This document shows, one piece after another, positions 38,564-53,081 of a stretch of DNA of 64,000 nucleotides. The stretch's first letter is position 1. Each line of letters opens with the position of its first letter. This stretch comes from Albidovulum aestuarii (GTDB lineage: Bacteria > Pseudomonadota > Alphaproteobacteria > Rhodobacterales > Rhodobacteraceae), in contig NZ_JASBQQ010000009.1 in NCBI RefSeq assembly GCF_029961185.1, positions 1 through 64,000 of the forward strand. Reading direction: 5' to 3'. A program made the translations under genes and the position numbers. The notes beneath the pieces are model-generated. The model had not been told where the DNA came from. It ran no database searches and worked only from the letters and a program-made list of their open reading frames with translations.

Positions 38564-38739
38564 GGCGGCCAAGCTAGGCTCCCATGGGGTCGGTCGCAAG
38601 CGCCCGCATCCACTTGTCGCATCCCGGTGAGAATTTTCGCTTCAAGCGCTCAGCGGCTTGGATTGATCGCAGTCGCAAGGTCTTTATTGCAGCGTCGCTA
38701 CGACGGTCGCGACCAACCTCGAAACGACCGGTCACTACA

Positions 38740-39123
38740 TTATTGGTGCCGCCAATAGGTCCTGCTGCATTTCACGGAAAGCGCGTTGATTGCCGCAATT
38801 GTGCTCCGGCGTCCTGCCTCGACTTGCGCAGCGGCTGCGGCTTTCCCCAAGGACGTCTTGGCGAACATTTGGTATGTCTGAAAACGCCAGGCGTCTTCGA
38901 CAACCTGCATCTCGTTTGGTGAACAGTTTCTTGCCAGTACTGGCCGGTAATCCCTTGTGATCGCAGCATGCATTTGCAGCATAACCGGCGTCAGTTCGAC
39001 CTGAGGAACTTCGGGCCTGGCCTGAGGGCTATCGGGCGTAGGTGTACAGCCAATCATTACGGCCAAGCCCGCAATAACAAGCGTCTTGAAGTTCAGAATA
39101 TTTGGAAGAATTGCACGACACAC
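38740..39123 (-). CDS. putative lipoprotein of unknown function
   Basis: 127 residues from GTG 39123, chosen because GCAGGAGGA lies seven bases upstream. A signal with [16 protein letters not shown] (lipidated cysteine near residue 26) is followed by a proline-rich linker and a helical domain with three cysteines in the mature part. No family recognised. Divergent from pyrB; local GC is lower than the core genes (32 of 60 bases at 38641-38700), consistent with accessory DNA. Confidence 0.6.
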
Positions 39124-39304
39124 TGGGCTTCCTCCTGCGAGGACGGTAGTAGCCGCCCCCGTTTCGTTCATTGACCCAAGTCAAGTTGCCTGCAAATGGC
39201 GGCTTCGTCCCGCCGGAAGCCATATCCCGAACCGGACCCCCCATTCACCGTTGCCCCGCCCGCGTCCATTTGCCATAAGCAGCCGAAACGGGACCGGAGA
39301 GACC

Positions 39305-40267
39305 ATGACATTCCGCGCGCGTCACCTTCTGGGGATCGAACATCTGGCCCCGGAAGAGATTCGCACCGTCCTCGACCTTGCCGAGACCTATGTCGAACTG
39401 AACCAGCGCACGGTGAAACATGCCAACGCGCTGGAAGGCATGACCCAGATCAACATGTTCTTCGAGGCCTCGACCCGGACACAGGCATCGTTCGAACTCG
39501 CAGGCAAGCGCTTGGGTGCCGACGTCATGAACATGGCGATGCAGCATTCCTCGGTGAAGAAGGGCGAGACGCTCATTGACACCGCGCTGACGCTGAACGC
39601 GATGCATCCCGACCTGCTGGTGGTGCGCCACCCGGCCTCCGGCGCGGTCGACCTCTTGGCCCAGAAGGTCAACTGTGCGGTGCTGAACGCGGGCGACGGG
39701 CGGCACGAACACCCGACACAGGCGCTTCTCGACGCGCTTACGATCCGCCGCGCCAAGGGCCGTGTGCAGCGCCTGACCGTGGCGATCTGCGGCGACATCG
39801 CCCATAGCCGCGTGGCGCGGTCGAACCTGATCCTGCTTGGCAAGATGGAAAACCGCATCCGCCTGATCGGCCCGCCGACACTGATGCCCTCGGGCGTCGC
39901 CGACCTCGGCTGCGAAGTCTATCAGGACATGCGCGAGGGGCTGAAGGACGCCGACGTGGTGATGATGCTGCGCCTGCAGAAGGAACGCATGGATGGTGGC
40001 TTCATCCCGTCCGAGCGGGAATATTACCACCGCTACGGGCTTGATGCCGAAAAGCTCGCACATGCGAAAGAGGACGCAATCGTCATGCATCCGGGGCCGA
40101 TGAACCGGGGGGTGGAGATCGACGGAGAACTCGCCGACGACATCAACCGGTCCGTCATTCAGGATCAGGTCGAAATGGGCGTGGCCGTCCGCATGGCCTG
40201 CATGGACCTCTTGGCCCGGAACCTGAGGGCCGAGCGTGGGCGGCAGGCGGTGGGGGTGATGGTGTGA
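39305..40267 (+). CDS. pyrB: aspartate carbamoyltransferase catalytic subunit
   Basis: Joins carbamoyl phosphate and aspartate, the committed step of pyrimidine synthesis. 320 residues. Carbamoyl-phosphate motif [20 protein letters not shown], the substrate loop [26 protein letters not shown], and the aspartate-binding [10 protein letters not shown]. No regulatory chain pyrI is present, as usual outside enterobacteria; the partner is normally an inactive dihydroorotase homologue, which lies two genes downstream. The stop overlaps the start of the inserted DUF4268 gene (GTGA). Confidence 0.96.
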
Positions 40268-41259
40268 GCGGATTGGGAAGGCTGGAAAGGGTTGAGCTTA
40301 GGGACGAGTGGCCAAGTGAGGCACAACACTTCACGCCCTGGCTCGCGCAGGAGGATAACCTGCGCCTTCTCGGAGAAGCCTTGAGTATTGATCTTGAACT
40401 TGAAGCGCAAGAACGAAGTGTCGGCCCCTTTCGCGCCGATATATTGTGTAAAGATACTGCAAACGGGAATTGGGTTCTGGTCGAAAACCAACTCGAACGC
40501 ACCGATCACACCCACCTCGGTCAACTGATAACATATGCTGCCGGACTACAGGCAGTGACGATCGTGTGGGTTGCGTCGAGGTTCGCAGAGGAACATCGCG
40601 CCGCATGTGATTGGCTAAACGAAGTGACTGACGAGAAAATCCGTGTGTTCGGACTGGAAGTTGAGCTTTGGCGTATCGGGGCTAGCCCCGCAGCACCGAA
40701 ATTCAATGTCGTTTGCAAGCCAAACAACTGGAGCAAGTCCGTAGCATCGGCGAAGCGCGGCCTTGAGGGGGGGAGTGCAGGTTCGATTCTTGAAATGCAG
40801 CGCAATTACTGGACTGCGTTCGAGGAACTTTTGGCCAGCAGTTCAACGCCGATCAACCCAGTTTCACCTCCAGCGCAATCCTGGGTCGCGCACGGTATCG
40901 GTCGAACTGGCGTTGGGCTAAATCTGGCAATGAACACAAAAGAGAATTATGCGCGTGTAGAGATTTACTTCTCAGGGAGTCACGCCAAGTCGAACTATGC
41001 TCAAATCGAGCAGCGCAAGGCGGAAGTGGAGGCATCACTTGGCGAGCCACTTCACTGGCAACCGCTACCACAGAAGAAAGACTGCCGGATCTCACTTGCC
41101 CTCACAAACATCGACCTGACGGACGAGGATGATTGGCCACGCCAGCACCAGTGGCTGGTTGAAAAGATGACAAGCTTTTATCATGTCTTCCGTCCACTAG
41201 TCCTCAGTCTGAAGCGCGACATTGCTGCGCCAGTTGGCAATGATGAGTCCCGCACATGA
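40264..41259 (+). CDS. DUF4268 protein with PD-(D/E)xK-nuclease-like N-terminal domain, inserted in the pyr operon
   Basis: 331 residues. The N-terminal half carries [20 protein letters not shown] followed by [19 protein letters not shown], the layout of PD-(D/E)xK-fold nucleases (RADIL aspartate, then the E-x-Q in VENQ). The C-terminal half ([20 protein letters not shown] onward) matches the DUF4268 style found in restriction and defence loci. GC is clearly lower than in flanking genes (26 and 24 of 60 at 40441 and 40921; 40 of 60 in pyrB at 39661). GTGA and ATGA overlaps tie it to pyrB and pyrC. Whether it cuts DNA is unknown. Confidence 0.8.
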
Positions 41260-42545
41260 CCACACTCCTCACCAATGCCCGCCTGATCGACCCCGAGGCC
41301 GGAACCGATACGCTCGGCGCTCTCTTGATCGAGGATGGCGTCATCGCCCGCATCTTCGACACGCCCGACGGTGTGCCCGACAAAAGTCCGACACTTCGCC
41401 GACGGGATGCAGACGGCAGATGCCTCGCCCCCGGCATCGTCGATCTCGGCGTCAAGATCGGTGAACCGGGCGAGCGGCATAAGGAGAGCTTCCGCTCCGC
41501 TGGCCTCGCTGCGGCGGCGGGCGGCGTGACCACGATCATCGCCCGGCCCGACACGAACCCCGCCATCGACACTCCCGAAACGCTCGAATTCGTCACCCGC
41601 CGCGCGGCGGAGGCCTGCCCCGTCCGCATCCGCCACATGGCTGCGCTCACCAAGGGGCGCGAGGGGCGGGAGATGACCGAGATCGGCTTCCTCCTCGATG
41701 CCGGGGCCATCGCCTTCACCGACTGCGACCATGTGGTTACGAATACCAAGGTCCTGTCCCGCGCCCTGACCTACGCCAAGTCGCTTGGCGCTCTCGTGAT
41801 GGGCCATCCGCAGGAACCGGGCCTGTCAGGTGGGGCCGCCACGACTTCCGGCAAGTTCGCATCCCTGCGGGGCCTGCCCGGCGTTTCTCCTATGGCCGAG
41901 CGCATCGGGTTCGACCGCGACATGGGAATGGTCGAGATGACCGGGGTGAAATACCACTTCGACCAGATCACCACCGCCCGCGCCCTGCCCCCCCTTGAAC
42001 GCGCCAAAAACAACGGGTTCGACGTGACCGCTGGCACCTCGATCCACCACCTGACGCTCAACGAATTCGACGTCGGCGATTACCGCACCTTCTTCAAGGT
42101 GAAACCCCCCTTGCGGTCGGAAGACGACCGGCTCGCGGTTGTCGAAGCCGTCGCCTCCGGTCTCATCGACATCATCTCCTCCATGCACACGCCGCAGGAT
42201 GAGGAAAGCAAACGCCTGCCCTTCGAGGATGCGGCCTCGGGTGCGGTCGCGCTGGAAACCTTCCTGCCCGCCGCGATGCGGCTCTATCACGCTGGCCACC
42301 TCTCCCTGCCCCAGCTTTTCCGGGCCATGGCGCTCAACCCCGCCAGACGGCTCGACCTGCCGCAGGGGCGTCTGGCCGAGGGCGCACCTGCCGATCTGGT
42401 CCTGTTCGACCCCGACGCGCCCTTCGTGCTCGACCGGTTCACCCTCAACTCCAAGTCCAAGAACACCCCGTTTGACGGGCAGCGGATGGAGGGTAAGGTG
42501 CTGGCGACCTGGGTCGCGGGCGTTCAGGTCTTCGGGGCGGAGTAG
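41256..42545 (+). CDS. pyrC: dihydroorotase homologue, probably non-catalytic (PyrC'/PyrX type)
   Basis: 429-residue amidohydrolase-fold protein. The metal site is degenerate: the usual DLHVHLREPG reads DLGVKIGEPG (Gly65, Lys67), the HVST motif reads FDQITTA, and the catalytic TDHAPH is replaced by SMHTPQ. In Pseudomonas and some alphaproteobacteria such an inactive homologue is a structural partner required by aspartate carbamoyltransferase. That role fits the pairing with pyrB, although DUF4268 separates them here. A true dihydroorotase must lie elsewhere in the genome. Overlaps the DUF4268 stop; plsY follows after 4 bases. Confidence 0.88.
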   Translation: MTTLLTNARLIDPEAGTDTLGALLIEDGVIARIFDTPDGVPDKSPTLRRRDADGRCLAPGIVDLGVKIGEPGERHKESFRSAGLAAAAGGVTTIIARPDTNPAIDTPETLEFVTRRAAEACPVRIRHMAALTKGREGREMTEIGFLLDAGAIAFTDCDHVVTNTKVLSRALTYAKSLGALVMGHPQEPGLSGGAATTSGKFASLRGLPGVSPMAERIGFDRDMGMVEMTGVKYHFDQITTARALPPLERAKNNGFDVTAGTSIHHLTLNEFDVGDYRTFFKVKPPLRSEDDRLAVVEAVASGLIDIISSMHTPQDEESKRLPFEDAASGAVALETFLPAAMRLYHAGHLSLPQLFRAMALNPARRLDLPQGRLAEGAPADLVLFDPDAPFVLDRFTLNSKSKNTPFDGQRMEGKVLATWVAGVQVFGAE

Positions 42546-50390: not shown

Positions 50391-50717
50391 ATGAACAGAA
50401 CCGAATTCATCTTCGCCACCGCGATCATCCTCTTCGTTGCCTTCGCGCTCGGCTGGTTCGCCTGCTGGCTCCTGCACCGGCTGACCCGCGTGACGCAGGC
50501 CGAAATGGGCGATCTGGAAAAAATGGCGCGCGAACTTCACGACGCCGAAGAAACCCGCGACAAGGCCATCGACTTTCTGGAAACGCGCGAGGCGGAACTG
50601 TCGAACCTGCTGCACCAAAGCCAGGCCGAACTGCGCGCGGCGATGGACGGATTGCGCGACGCCCGGCACGAGGCCGAGGAACTGCGCGCCTATATTGAAC
50701 GGATGAATGCGGGTTGA
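50391..50717 (+). CDS. small membrane-anchored coiled-coil protein
   Basis: 108 residues: one N-terminal membrane helix (~7-28, ATAIILFVAFALGWFACWLL) followed by an almost continuous coiled coil (~35-105, Glu/Ala/Arg-rich). No family recognised; the style resembles LapA-like or FtsB-like accessory proteins. It follows the OmpA-like gene by 46 bases and may be its partner. Confidence 0.72.
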   Translation: MNRTEFIFATAIILFVAFALGWFACWLLHRLTRVTQAEMGDLEKMARELHDAEETRDKAIDFLETREAELSNLLHQSQAELRAAMDGLRDARHEAEELRAYIERMNAG

Positions 50718-50786
50718 CGGTCGGGTGGTAACCGGCTCGGCCACCGCTTTGCAAACCGCCCGCAGCTCAACCGACCGATCAGAAAT

Positions 50787-51485
50787 TCAATTGACCAGCC
50801 CACCAGCTTTTTGGAGTTGGTGATTTGCCGCAATCAGCTTCGACAGCATGTTGGTGTGAAAACACGCCTGGATAGATTGATTGATCTCTTCGTTTGAAGT
50901 CACCAGTTTTCTCAATTCATCGCCGGCAATTGCCCAATAAAGCGTTCGACGTTTGATGATCGCTGTTCCTGTTGCCGGATCCCCCGAAAGGACAGTCAGT
51001 TCGCCGATGAAATCGCCATTTGCACAGCGGCCGACAACATTGCCGTTCACGAAAATCTCCACCTCACCATCGGCAATGTACACGAGATGCTTGGCCGGTT
51101 CTCCCGCCCTTGTTAATTCGGCGCCTTCGTCCGCTTCCACCCAGAAACCGTGACGGAGAATCCTACGCTTCAGGGTATTGCTCAAACCCGGAAACACCTT
51201 GTGAACAAAAGAAGCTTCAACAGCGTTGAATCTTTCGAGTCTGTTTTGGGCATAGGTGACCGACAATTGAACAATATTCACCAGCACCAAAAGACTCTCC
51301 CAAAAAACACCGACCGGGTCTTTCAGCCATATCAGGTCGTACGCGATCGCGACTAATGCAGATGCGATGACCAGTACGCGCAATATCCACATGACCCGCA
51401 TCATCATGGATAGGACCAGTAAGAGATATGACAGATGACCGACCAGACCGCCCGTCGAAAAGGCTGACTCCAACGTTAGTTCCAT
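50787..51485 (-). CDS. Popeye-like membrane protein with cyclic-nucleotide-binding domain
   Basis: 232 residues from ATG 51485 (AAAGGTG upstream). Three hydrophobic helices in residues ~12-75 are followed by a cNMP-binding fold: EGAELTRAGEPAKHLVYIADGEVEIFVNG (strand pair) and NGDFIGELTVLSGDPATGTAI in place of the usual phosphate-binding cassette. Order and topology match Popeye-domain proteins; ligand binding is inferred only. The coding region is lower in GC (27 of 60 at 51241-51300). Flanked by 399 non-coding bases, a likely acquired gene. Confidence 0.82.
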   Translation of the reverse strand: MELTLESAFSTGGLVGHLSYLLLVLSMMMRVMWILRVLVIASALVAIAYDLIWLKDPVGVFWESLLVLVNIVQLSVTYAQNRLERFNAVEASFVHKVFPGLSNTLKRRILRHGFWVEADEGAELTRAGEPAKHLVYIADGEVEIFVNGNVVGRCANGDFIGELTVLSGDPATGTAIIKRRTLYWAIAGDELRKLVTSNEEINQSIQACFHTNMLSKLIAANHQLQKAGGLVN

Positions 51486-51884
51486 TAAAGACACCTTTAT
51501 CCGCATGATCACGGGTCGGACGAGCGCACCGCAATCCTATCGCCGAAAAAGAAGCTCGAAGGATCTGTCAGATCAAAGCGCAAAGTCGTTCCAAGAAAAG
51601 ACAGTAGCAGACAGTGGCGGTTCGCCAAGCTCAAAGAACCGCCGAAGTGCGGATCTGAAATAGCAGTGATCTGCTCTGCTGGTACTCGGGTTCGAGATTG
51701 GCAGAACGCACTTCGACAATATCCTGTGCCCGCCGTTTGAACTGTCGTGCGATATGTCTTCAGGACAATCGAAGCGAAACGTTTTCTGGATCAGCGCAAT
51801 CGCCGAAGGAAAGACATCGGCGTTGGGACCGAAGCGAAGAAATCGGGACTACCGCCCATCAGTAATCGCCCCGGACCCTGAGGA
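51486..51884. other. non-coding stretch between the Popeye-like gene and the CoA-ligase cluster
   Basis: About 399 bases, lower in GC than core genes. No convincing open frame, tRNA, repeat array or terminator is visible. Direct repeat-like fragments (GATCTG at 51570, 51652 and 51670) are too short to interpret. It looks like degraded accessory DNA or long regulatory sequence for the Popeye-like gene. Confidence 0.5.
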
Positions 51885-53081
51885 TCAGTCATAAACCCGC
51901 TGGTCGTCGATGACCTTGCCGTCATTGGGCAGGCTGCCGGGCGGCACGATCTCCACCCGTCCCTTCATCTTCAGGACCGAGGCGACCGAGCCTTCATAGC
52001 GCGCAGGCTCCCCGCCCGGCGCTTCGATACGCACGGTCATCACGTCCATCTCGCCTTCGCGGGTGGCGATCACTCTTGCGCGGGCGACCTCGGCATGGCG
52101 GGCGACAAGGTCGGCGACCTGTTCGGGGCGCACGAACATACCCTTGATCTTGGTCGTCTGGTCGGCGCGACCCATCCAGCCCTTGATGCGTTTGTTGGTA
52201 CGCCCGCAGGGGGACGGCCCCGACATGACCGCCGAAAGGTCCCCGGTCGCGAAGCGGATCAGCGGATAATCGGGGTTGAGCGTTGTGACCACGACCTCAC
52301 CCACCTCGCCCTCTGGCACCGGGTCACCGGTGCCGGGGCGGACGATTTCGACGATGACGCCCTCATCGACGATCATCCCCTCCATCGCGGGGCTTTCGTA
52401 GGCGATATTGCCAAGATCAGCGGTGGCATAACATTGCAGGCAGGCGATACCGCGGTCGGCATATTCCGCGCGAAGCGACGGGAAGAGCGCCCCGCCCCCT
52501 ACAGCGGCCTTTGTGATCTTCAGCGCCTCGCCCATCTCTTCGGCCCGGTCGAGGATGACCTTCAGGTAGTCCGGCGTTCCGGCAAAGGCGGTCGTGCCGA
52601 TATCGGCGGCGGCACGAACCTGAAGGTCGGTCTGGCCGGTCCCGGCTGGCAGGACTTTCGCTCCAACCGCCCGGGCGCCGTTTTCAAAGATCATGCCGGC
52701 GGGTGTCAGGTGATAGCCAAAGCAGTTCTGGACGATATCCTCGGCGCCGATCCCGCAGGCATGAAGGAAGCGCCCCATCCGCCACCAGTCATGGCTGACG
52801 CCGCCCGGTTCATAGATCGGCCCCGGTGACTGGAAGATATGGGCGATGTTCGATGTCAGAATGCCGCCGAAGGGTGGGTTGTCCTTCTGCCACGCGACCA
52901 GGTCGGACTTGCGCAGCACCGGCAGAGTGGCCAGACCAGCCAGATCGGCTAGGGCTGTACCGTCGATCCGGCAGGCGCCCGGAACCGCCGCCACGCGCGC
53001 AAGCTGCCCCTTCAGCGCCCGAAGCTGGGCACCGGCGCGCTCATCGGCAGAGCGGGTTTCAAGGGCGTCGAAAAAATTCAT
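51885..53081 (-). CDS. PaaK-like CoA ligase family protein
   Basis: 398 residues from ATG 53081 (MNFFDALETRSADERAGAQL); another ATG at 53096 touches the livF stop. Resembles phenylacetate-CoA ligase: GYHLTPAGMIFENGARAVGAKVLPAGTGQTD, GTPDYLKVIL, CYATADLGNIAYE and the adenylation motif LIRFATGDLS. The usual SSGTTGKPT ATP loop is altered to IFQSPGPIYEPGG, as in a divergent subgroup, so activity is less certain. Last gene of the importer cluster; with the ligase at 59.4-61.4 kb it frames the transporter. Confidence 0.82.
   Translation of the reverse strand: MNFFDALETRSADERAGAQLRALKGQLARVAAVPGACRIDGTALADLAGLATLPVLRKSDLVAWQKDNPPFGGILTSNIAHIFQSPGPIYEPGGVSHDWWRMGRFLHACGIGAEDIVQNCFGYHLTPAGMIFENGARAVGAKVLPAGTGQTDLQVRAAADIGTTAFAGTPDYLKVILDRAEEMGEALKITKAAVGGGALFPSLRAEYADRGIACLQCYATADLGNIAYESPAMEGMIVDEGVIVEIVRPGTGDPVPEGEVGEVVVTTLNPDYPLIRFATGDLSAVMSGPSPCGRTNKRIKGWMGRADQTTKIKGMFVRPEQVADLVARHAEVARARVIATREGEMDVMTVRIEAPGGEPARYEGSVASVLKMKGRVEIVPPGSLPNDGKVIDDQRVYD

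Follow-up and report, generated by a model that had tools for sequence, protein, structure and literature searches.

What is a gene with the features of a nuclease doing between two genes of pyrimidine biosynthesis, and what kind of site holds it? The question is raised by the window analysed here, a stretch of 64,000 nucleotides from Albidovulum aestuarii (Rhodobacteraceae; contig NZ_JASBQQ010000009.1, positions 1 to 64,000), in which a gene encoding a DUF4268 protein lies between pyrB and pyrC and shares four nucleotides with each. A first-pass annotation, made from the letters alone, had described it as a horizontally acquired, possibly defence-related nuclease whose translation is tied to pyrimidine synthesis, perhaps sensing nucleotide pools. 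We favour, with moderate confidence, the reading that it is an anti-phage restriction nuclease of the PDC-S11 type, sitting in an exchangeable cargo slot at the pyrB-pyrC junction and expressed with the pyr operon. The computed results behind this reading are the anatomy of the locus, the predicted fold, the conservation of motifs, the occupancy of the slot, a mismatch in divergence between gene and flanks, and an association with type I restriction. Both overlaps had been called by the first-pass annotation and were borne out by direct reading; the features of the locus are:

39305..40267, + strand: pyrB, aspartate carbamoyltransferase, the upstream neighbour (Pfam OTCace_N and OTCace)
40244..40260, + strand: strong Shine-Dalgarno-like stretch within the 3' end of pyrB (duplex energy -9.7 kcal/mol)
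40264..40267, + strand: GTGA overlap of the DUF4268 gene start with the pyrB stop (direct reading)
40264..41259, + strand: PDC-S11/DUF4268 candidate nuclease gene, 331 amino acids (aa), GTG start (PADLOC PDC-S11, E 2.6e-121; Pfam DUF4268)
40303..40695, + strand: predicted EndoMS/NucS-like PD-(D/E)XK nuclease domain, residues 14-144
40438..40440, + strand: D59, candidate metal ligand (invariant in 106/106 homologues)
40483..40491, + strand: E74-N75-Q76, candidate ExK/ExQ motif (conservation in 106 homologues)
40795..41196, + strand: DUF4268 domain, residues 178-311 (YbjN/type III secretion chaperone-like fold in the model)
41256..41259, + strand: ATGA overlap of the DUF4268 gene stop with the pyrC start (direct reading)
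41256..42545, + strand: pyrC, dihydroorotase, the downstream neighbour, with a weak Shine-Dalgarno of its own in the window (Amidohydro_1)

A predicted PD-(D/E)XK domain joined to DUF4268

The protein matches the PDC-S11 profile over its full length (residues 3-313 of 331 against positions 4-312 of 318; PADLOC), and Pfam places DUF4268 at residues 178-311 (E 1.2e-30) as the sole domain, DUF262 and DUF1524 not being found; neither Pfam nor NCBIfam gives a nucleotide-binding domain. The PD-(D/E)xK-like layout that had been read into the N-terminal half from the motifs RADIL and VENQ holds: both motifs are present, D59, E74 and N75 are invariant in all 106 aligned homologues, and position 76 is Q in 105 of them and K in one. 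The annotation had made its reading depend on structure prediction giving a nuclease fold, and such a fold is predicted, the N-terminal domain of the model having the alpha-beta-beta-beta-alpha-beta core of PD-(D/E)XK nucleases (model secondary structure and PDB matches), with the active-site residues D and E-x-Q present as D59, E74 and Q76. ExQ is an accepted variant of ExK in these nucleases.

The closest fold is that of EndoMS/NucS, and the N-terminal half is, on the model, a predicted PD-(D/E)XK nuclease domain of this type, apparently related to the C-terminal domain of NucS. The window protein differs from NucS in carrying a C-terminal DUF4268 in place of the NucS N-terminal domain, and NucS presumably has K where the window protein has Q76. 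The NCBIfam NucS model gives 13.8 bits against a cut-off of 216 (E 0.022), over residues 43-95 only, and the window protein, which does not reach the full-length curated score, is therefore not filed as NucS; weak matches to the model occur in 6 of 30 homologues (best 9.1e-5). Pfam matches to NucS_C, MmcB-like and PDDEXK_4, each in one of 30 homologues (E 0.039-0.066), were too weak to count. Nothing credible came from a sequence-profile search of solved structures (best E 0.097) or from phmmer searches of them with two homologues, so that the structural relatives come from fold comparison only. In the model DUF4268 resembles the type III secretion chaperones ExsC, Spa15 and CesT as well as YbjN, at a sequence identity of only about 4-14%; it differs from them in being fused to a nuclease domain, and no secretion context was seen. 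Homologues of GmrSD carry DUF4268 as an extra domain, according to passages of one report (PMC4619093), GmrSD being a type IV restriction enzyme; the window protein is the product of a single gene without DUF262 or DUF1524.

The pyrB-pyrC junction is a recurrent site with varying content

Across the family, pyrB is found in 380 of 394 genomes, as is pyrC, and in the 94 of these genomes with both genes among the matches listed the two share contig and strand, at a distance of 2 to 9887 nt measured from the last pyrB codon. Within the genus a pyrB match is present in 22/22 genomes, and the junction could be parsed in 19 of them, G011, G015 and G016 being left out because pyrC is cut by contig ends or lies on a different contig from pyrB. 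At three of the 19 sites (G003, G004, G005) nothing is inserted, and pyrB overlaps pyrC by 4 nt. Another six are occupied by one gene each, which shares 4 nt with the gene on either side. In the window, where it is alone, and in G019 this occupant is the DUF4268 gene; in G020 it is a gene of 157 aa, and in the remaining three cases a gene of 154-192 aa not assigned to any family. The other 10 have short gaps or other arrangements. The RTGA common to pyrB and pyrC in empty sites is the one found at the bounds of the insert in filled ones. The G020 gene (L078:1402-1875), with the same 4-nt overlaps, resembles the DUF4268 part only and lacks the nuclease domain, its match to PDC-S11 being confined to the C-terminal part (1.1e-4, PADLOC; hhalign probability 82%). 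Homologues occur in 3/22 genus genomes, at the junction in the window and G019 and, as a remote homologue, elsewhere in G005. That remote PDC-S11 homologue (L003:922-2058) has ENK in place of ENQ and an HsdR match in its flank.

The gene is present in 28 of 394 family genomes (E 1e-30), and the pyr operons of relatives, which the first-pass annotation had proposed to compare, do not all contain it; a search of the genus of G128 gave one genome of four, an uninformative count. In nine of these 28 carriers, from nine genus codes, it occupies the pyrB-pyrC site, although in one (L043) the 2.1 kb of contig upstream is without pyrB. Among public loci, for which the best 80 of at least 559 homologous stretches (590 candidates) in a genome collection were kept, six have the gene at this site, two of them repeating G019 and G084; these pyr-resident loci include Paracoccus lichenicola, P. 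shandongensis, Paracoccus sp. WLY502 and Roseovarius marisflavi. Around the other 74, neither pyrB nor pyrC turns up in the retrieved flanks, which reach at most 6 kb on each side. In all there are 14 non-redundant pyr-resident loci, and in 13 of them the gene stop touches or overlaps the pyrC start (0-14 nt; 11 loci computed, L036 and L043 by eye), the exception being L052, at 449 nt; in some, such as L081 and L133, other genes stand between pyrB and the DUF4268 gene. A single random insertion was rejected, as the gene recurs at this site across family and public loci, mostly from one clade, and the G019 copy was rejected as a pseudogene: one TGA falls within the match, but the open reading frame (ORF) of 331 aa has its own start and stop.

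Nine slot proteins other than full-length DUF4268 proteins gave, in PADLOC, the PDC-S11 match of G020, one weak LmuB match (0.0026) and seven blanks, and ten slot-cargo proteins, of which the common kind had been labelled 'bPH-like', gave nothing above cut-off in Pfam. Single-linkage clustering of slot cargo mixed unrelated proteins, and its cluster 0 was not used as a family. The largest insert, 9.9 kb in G260 (L080:1921-8563), encodes three large proteins of 553, 773 and 874 aa without a PADLOC match; the 553-aa protein, the one of the three tried, has no Pfam match. Four congeners (L069, L070, L073, L075) have gaps of 70-124 nt with similar ends that look by eye like decayed cargo, and the insert of G002 (L063) begins, also by eye, in a similar way. 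No tRNA gene lies in the 34-48 kb part of the window; integrases were not searched for. Like defence hotspots and islands, the junction combines a single chromosomal position with contents that vary and with cargo of defence type; unlike them, it takes single genes that fit between two members of one operon through start-stop overlaps of 4 nt.

Gene and flanks have diverged out of step

A tree built from 105 homologues places 12 of the 14 pyr-resident proteins in one group (Shimodaira-Hasegawa-like approximate likelihood ratio test, SH-aLRT, 96), while the two others pair elsewhere, one on a long branch. Nearest to the window protein are Paracoccus and G128 proteins (60-62% identity), against 48% for congener G019, and the path from the window to G019 measures 0.035 changes per site in pyrB plus pyrC as opposed to 2.16 in the gene. 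The sister of the window in pyrB plus pyrC is G004 (bootstrap 97, SH-aLRT 93), whose slot is empty. Between P. lichenicola and P. shandongensis the gene has a nonsynonymous divergence (dN) of 0.034 and a synonymous divergence (dS) of 0.594; the dN/dS of 0.056 is close to that of pyrB, and the gene is under purifying selection between these two species. Between P. lichenicola and Paracoccus WLY502, dN is 0.018 in pyrB and 0.38 in the gene, with dS saturated. Judged from these sequences, plain descent is hard to reconcile with the mismatch between gene and flanks, and at least two allele replacements have probably taken place at this one address. Identity profiles of the window and G004, in 300-bp or 60-bp bins, give no sign of a simple transfer that brought long foreign flanks with it; pyrC profiles against Paracoccus, aligned without gaps and no longer in register, were left unused, as was the last pyrB bin, of 3 bases. 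The claim of horizontal acquisition is thereby upheld in part: presence is patchy (at the site in 2/22 genus genomes, and 28/394 in the family) and the history looks non-vertical, but the gene is a recurrent resident of the pyr site and not a lone recent wedge.

Relatives keep company with type I restriction genes

Record titles of homologues name Alphaproteobacteria, Planctomycetes, Verrucomicrobia, Chloroflexi and others, indicating a wide, patchy family. Relatives are found on 309 of 72,556 plasmid records (all below 60% identity), on 4 of 50,697 phage records and on 68 IMG/VR contigs, of which eight have type I restriction-modification (RM) sequence in the fetched flanks and none has pyrB or pyrC there. 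Among 76 non-redundant loci, 26 show type I RM sequence nearby, within the flanks retrieved (21 with HsdR or HsdS, five with a methylase match alone), compared with 0/40 ten-kb control segments from 20 family genomes. Of 93 neighbouring genes chosen on the same strand as a relative, Pfam identifies 14 as HsdR and 11 as HsdS (12 by PADLOC), and the order hsdM-hsdS-gene-hsdR recurs in several loci (e.g. L157, L165, L213, L216). The link of DUF4268 to restriction and defence genes, named in the first-pass annotation, is supported by these neighbours together with the PDC-S11 match. On an Agrobacterium larrymoorei plasmid, one of three plasmid neighbourhoods read, restriction and methyltransferase genes lie near the relative.

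The position of some relatives within or beside type I RM loci is consistent with the discovery of PDCs through guilt-by-embedding, as described in passages of PMC12988326. The window gene differs in this respect, lying outside any hsdMSR operon and in a host operon, pyrB-pyrC, that is biosynthetic and not a defence operon. TgvAB, according to excerpts of PMC11411939, is a tested type IV-like restriction system whose genes lie inside a type I RM operon, and in P. aeruginosa 90% of 10 strains carrying PDC-S11 fall into the resistant group, a correlation only, in the passages available from PMC10855318. Elsewhere in the genome of the window there are two HSDR_N matches (G000:C28:220042-220548 and G000:C12:292855-293004).

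Translation signals at the junction

In the window the Shine-Dalgarno-like stretch in the 3' end of pyrB, GGTGGGGGTGATGG, precedes the cargo gene (-9.7), whereas the Shine-Dalgarno of pyrC itself, at -2.3, is at random level (mean -2.5, 5th percentile -6.5, from 1000 random positions); energies are quoted only for loci with a true pyrC start codon. In the three empty sites the matching stretch precedes pyrC, with -6.5, -7.4 and -9.9, and in other single-gene slots (L062, L078, L079) pyrC has -2.8 to -4.0. In the window, the weak Shine-Dalgarno and the ATGA overlap point to translation of pyrC by re-initiation after the cargo gene. The earlier proposal that translation is tied to pyrimidine synthesis is supported at the level of anatomy, by these overlaps and energies.

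Base composition of the window

The guanine-plus-cytosine (GC) content of the gene, 0.540 (0.560 at third codon positions, GC3), is well below that of pyrB (0.639, GC3 0.835) and pyrC (0.665, GC3 0.837), as a hand count had indicated. In a scan of the 64 kb with 996-bp windows in 50-bp steps, 13 of 1261 are at or below 0.540, one at 40251 and the other 12 with start positions between 50501 and 51051. All 14 pyr-resident DUF4268 genes have a GC lower than their flanks; low GC alone therefore cannot date the arrival, and was rejected as proof that it is recent. The other equally low-GC stretch (50501-52050, 50.5-52.0 kb) contains a 241-aa ORF on the minus strand (50787-51512) whose C-terminus looks cyclic-nucleotide-binding-like by eye. 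Just upstream of pyrB, a lower-GC segment (38700-39240) holds a 143-aa ORF (38740-39171, minus strand) with a start that is lipoprotein-like by eye; nothing in the stretches retrieved from congeners G004, G019, G006 and G021 matches the segment, and only the final ~63 bases of 38701-39300 match them.

Discussion

Under the reading favoured here, the EndoMS/NucS-like PD-(D/E)XK domain would cut DNA, and the DUF4268 joined to it, a putative YbjN/secretion-chaperone-like binding domain, would most likely recognise or gate the target, whether a partner or some property of the invading DNA. The slot would be the pyrB/pyrC start-stop junction, with exchangeable content; its cargo would be expressed in the pyr operon, using the Shine-Dalgarno in the 3' end of pyrB, and pyrC would then be translated through re-initiation at the ATGA overlap. 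Horizontal transfer and recombination may empty the slot or bring into it different alleles of this one pyr-resident lineage. Granting a role in defence, restriction of DNA, presumably that of phages, is our tentative first choice of action, and a protein-triggered suicidal nuclease a rather unlikely second.

Several observations weigh against this reading. The control segments come from taxa other than those of the test loci, no type I RM match was obtained near 50 of the 76 relatives within the flanks retrieved (some of these being truncated by contig ends), and restriction or methyltransferase genes are not near the relative in two of the three plasmid neighbourhoods read. In the portions of the literature consulted, no PDC-S11 member with demonstrated activity was found. 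The placement of twelve proteins in one clade depends on one quick tree, and a more careful sub-tree splits the pyr group from the outgroup rows at 70/94 only, with L052 on the outgroup side. The approximately unbiased (AU) test leaves the window and G019 as sister alleles unrejected (p 0.19), so that the replacement argument rests on branch lengths and not on topology, and the identity profiles of the window and G004 contain no foreign tract beside the slot that would mark the route of allele entry. Finally, pyrC of G019 keeps a fair Shine-Dalgarno (-6.9); dependence of pyrC on its cargo is therefore not general but differs between loci.

The rival closest to this reading keeps gene and slot but makes the protein an abortive-infection DNase, in which DUF4268 binds a phage protein and frees a nuclease that damages the cell's own DNA instead of incoming DNA; the likeness of DUF4268 to peptide- and partner-binding chaperones and to YbjN, and flanks made up of pyrB and pyrC with no methylase, would fit it, and we hold it to be unlikely, if worth keeping in mind. 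A repair or housekeeping nuclease, an EndoMS/NucS-like mismatch cutter placed with the pyrimidine genes for metabolic reasons, would accord with the closest fold and with purifying selection, but patchy presence (28/394), divergence out of step with the flanks, relatives on plasmids, three congeners with an empty site and the lack of a full NucS match make it improbable. Sensing of nucleotide pools through the place in the operon, suggested by the first-pass annotation, finds no support and is scarcely credible: position speaks for it, as might the lowering of pyr expression by phage infection in Lactococcus cremoris, where pyrB is repressed 36-fold by 15 minutes according to passages of PMC10986495 (a case of operon expression changing on infection, though in a different organism with a different regulator), but neither Pfam nor NCBIfam finds a nucleotide-binding domain in the protein and most public relatives (74/80, as above) stand away from pyrB and pyrC. 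By analogy, such repression, if valid here, would lower, not raise, a gene of this kind.

Two further possibilities concern the junction itself. As a free-standing homing nuclease, the pyr-resident lineage would cut the uninterrupted pyrB-pyrC junction and copy itself into empty slots, the insertion splitting its own target; one lineage holding one address across genera, the RTGA shared by empty and filled sites and the similarity of the DNA on both sides across genera are in its favour. Yet in congeners different genes fill the slot, overlapping their neighbours in the same way, relatives found elsewhere often adjoin restriction genes and not one target, no co-conversion tract is visible in the flanks, and homing does not predict allele replacement in filled slots, all of which leaves it very doubtful. 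Another long shot is that the junction is, in Rhodobacteraceae, an address-specific exchange site whose specialised nuclease lineage recognises or cuts the uninterrupted junction, which would let it enter empty slots, and captures the ribosome-binding signal of pyrC, making its own loss costly; if so, a frameshift in the nuclease gene would lower PyrC, and a defence nuclease would be tethered to an essential pathway via translational coupling.

Searches for defence genes usually look at islands, prophages and restriction loci. In the present case a known defence candidate, both domains of which now have a fold reading, occupies an unusual but recurring address where its start and stop codons interlock with those of its neighbours. 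In at least nine genera it is kept between two genes of a core biosynthetic operon and, in the window, without a scar and with its neighbour's translation signal taken over. In titles and opening lines of abstracts on DUF4268, PDC-S11, the Rhodobacter pyrB-pyrC operon and inserted defence genes, a body of text with subscription papers mostly outside it, no earlier description of such a slot was found. PDC-S11, an unproven catalogue entry, becomes testable through a concrete candidate active site and a fold for its unexplained DUF4268 domain. If the favoured reading is confirmed, core operons can be exchange slots for immunity genes, a kind of site that defence scans may overlook, and a place in such an operon would be a simple means of keeping these genes expressed and hard to lose.
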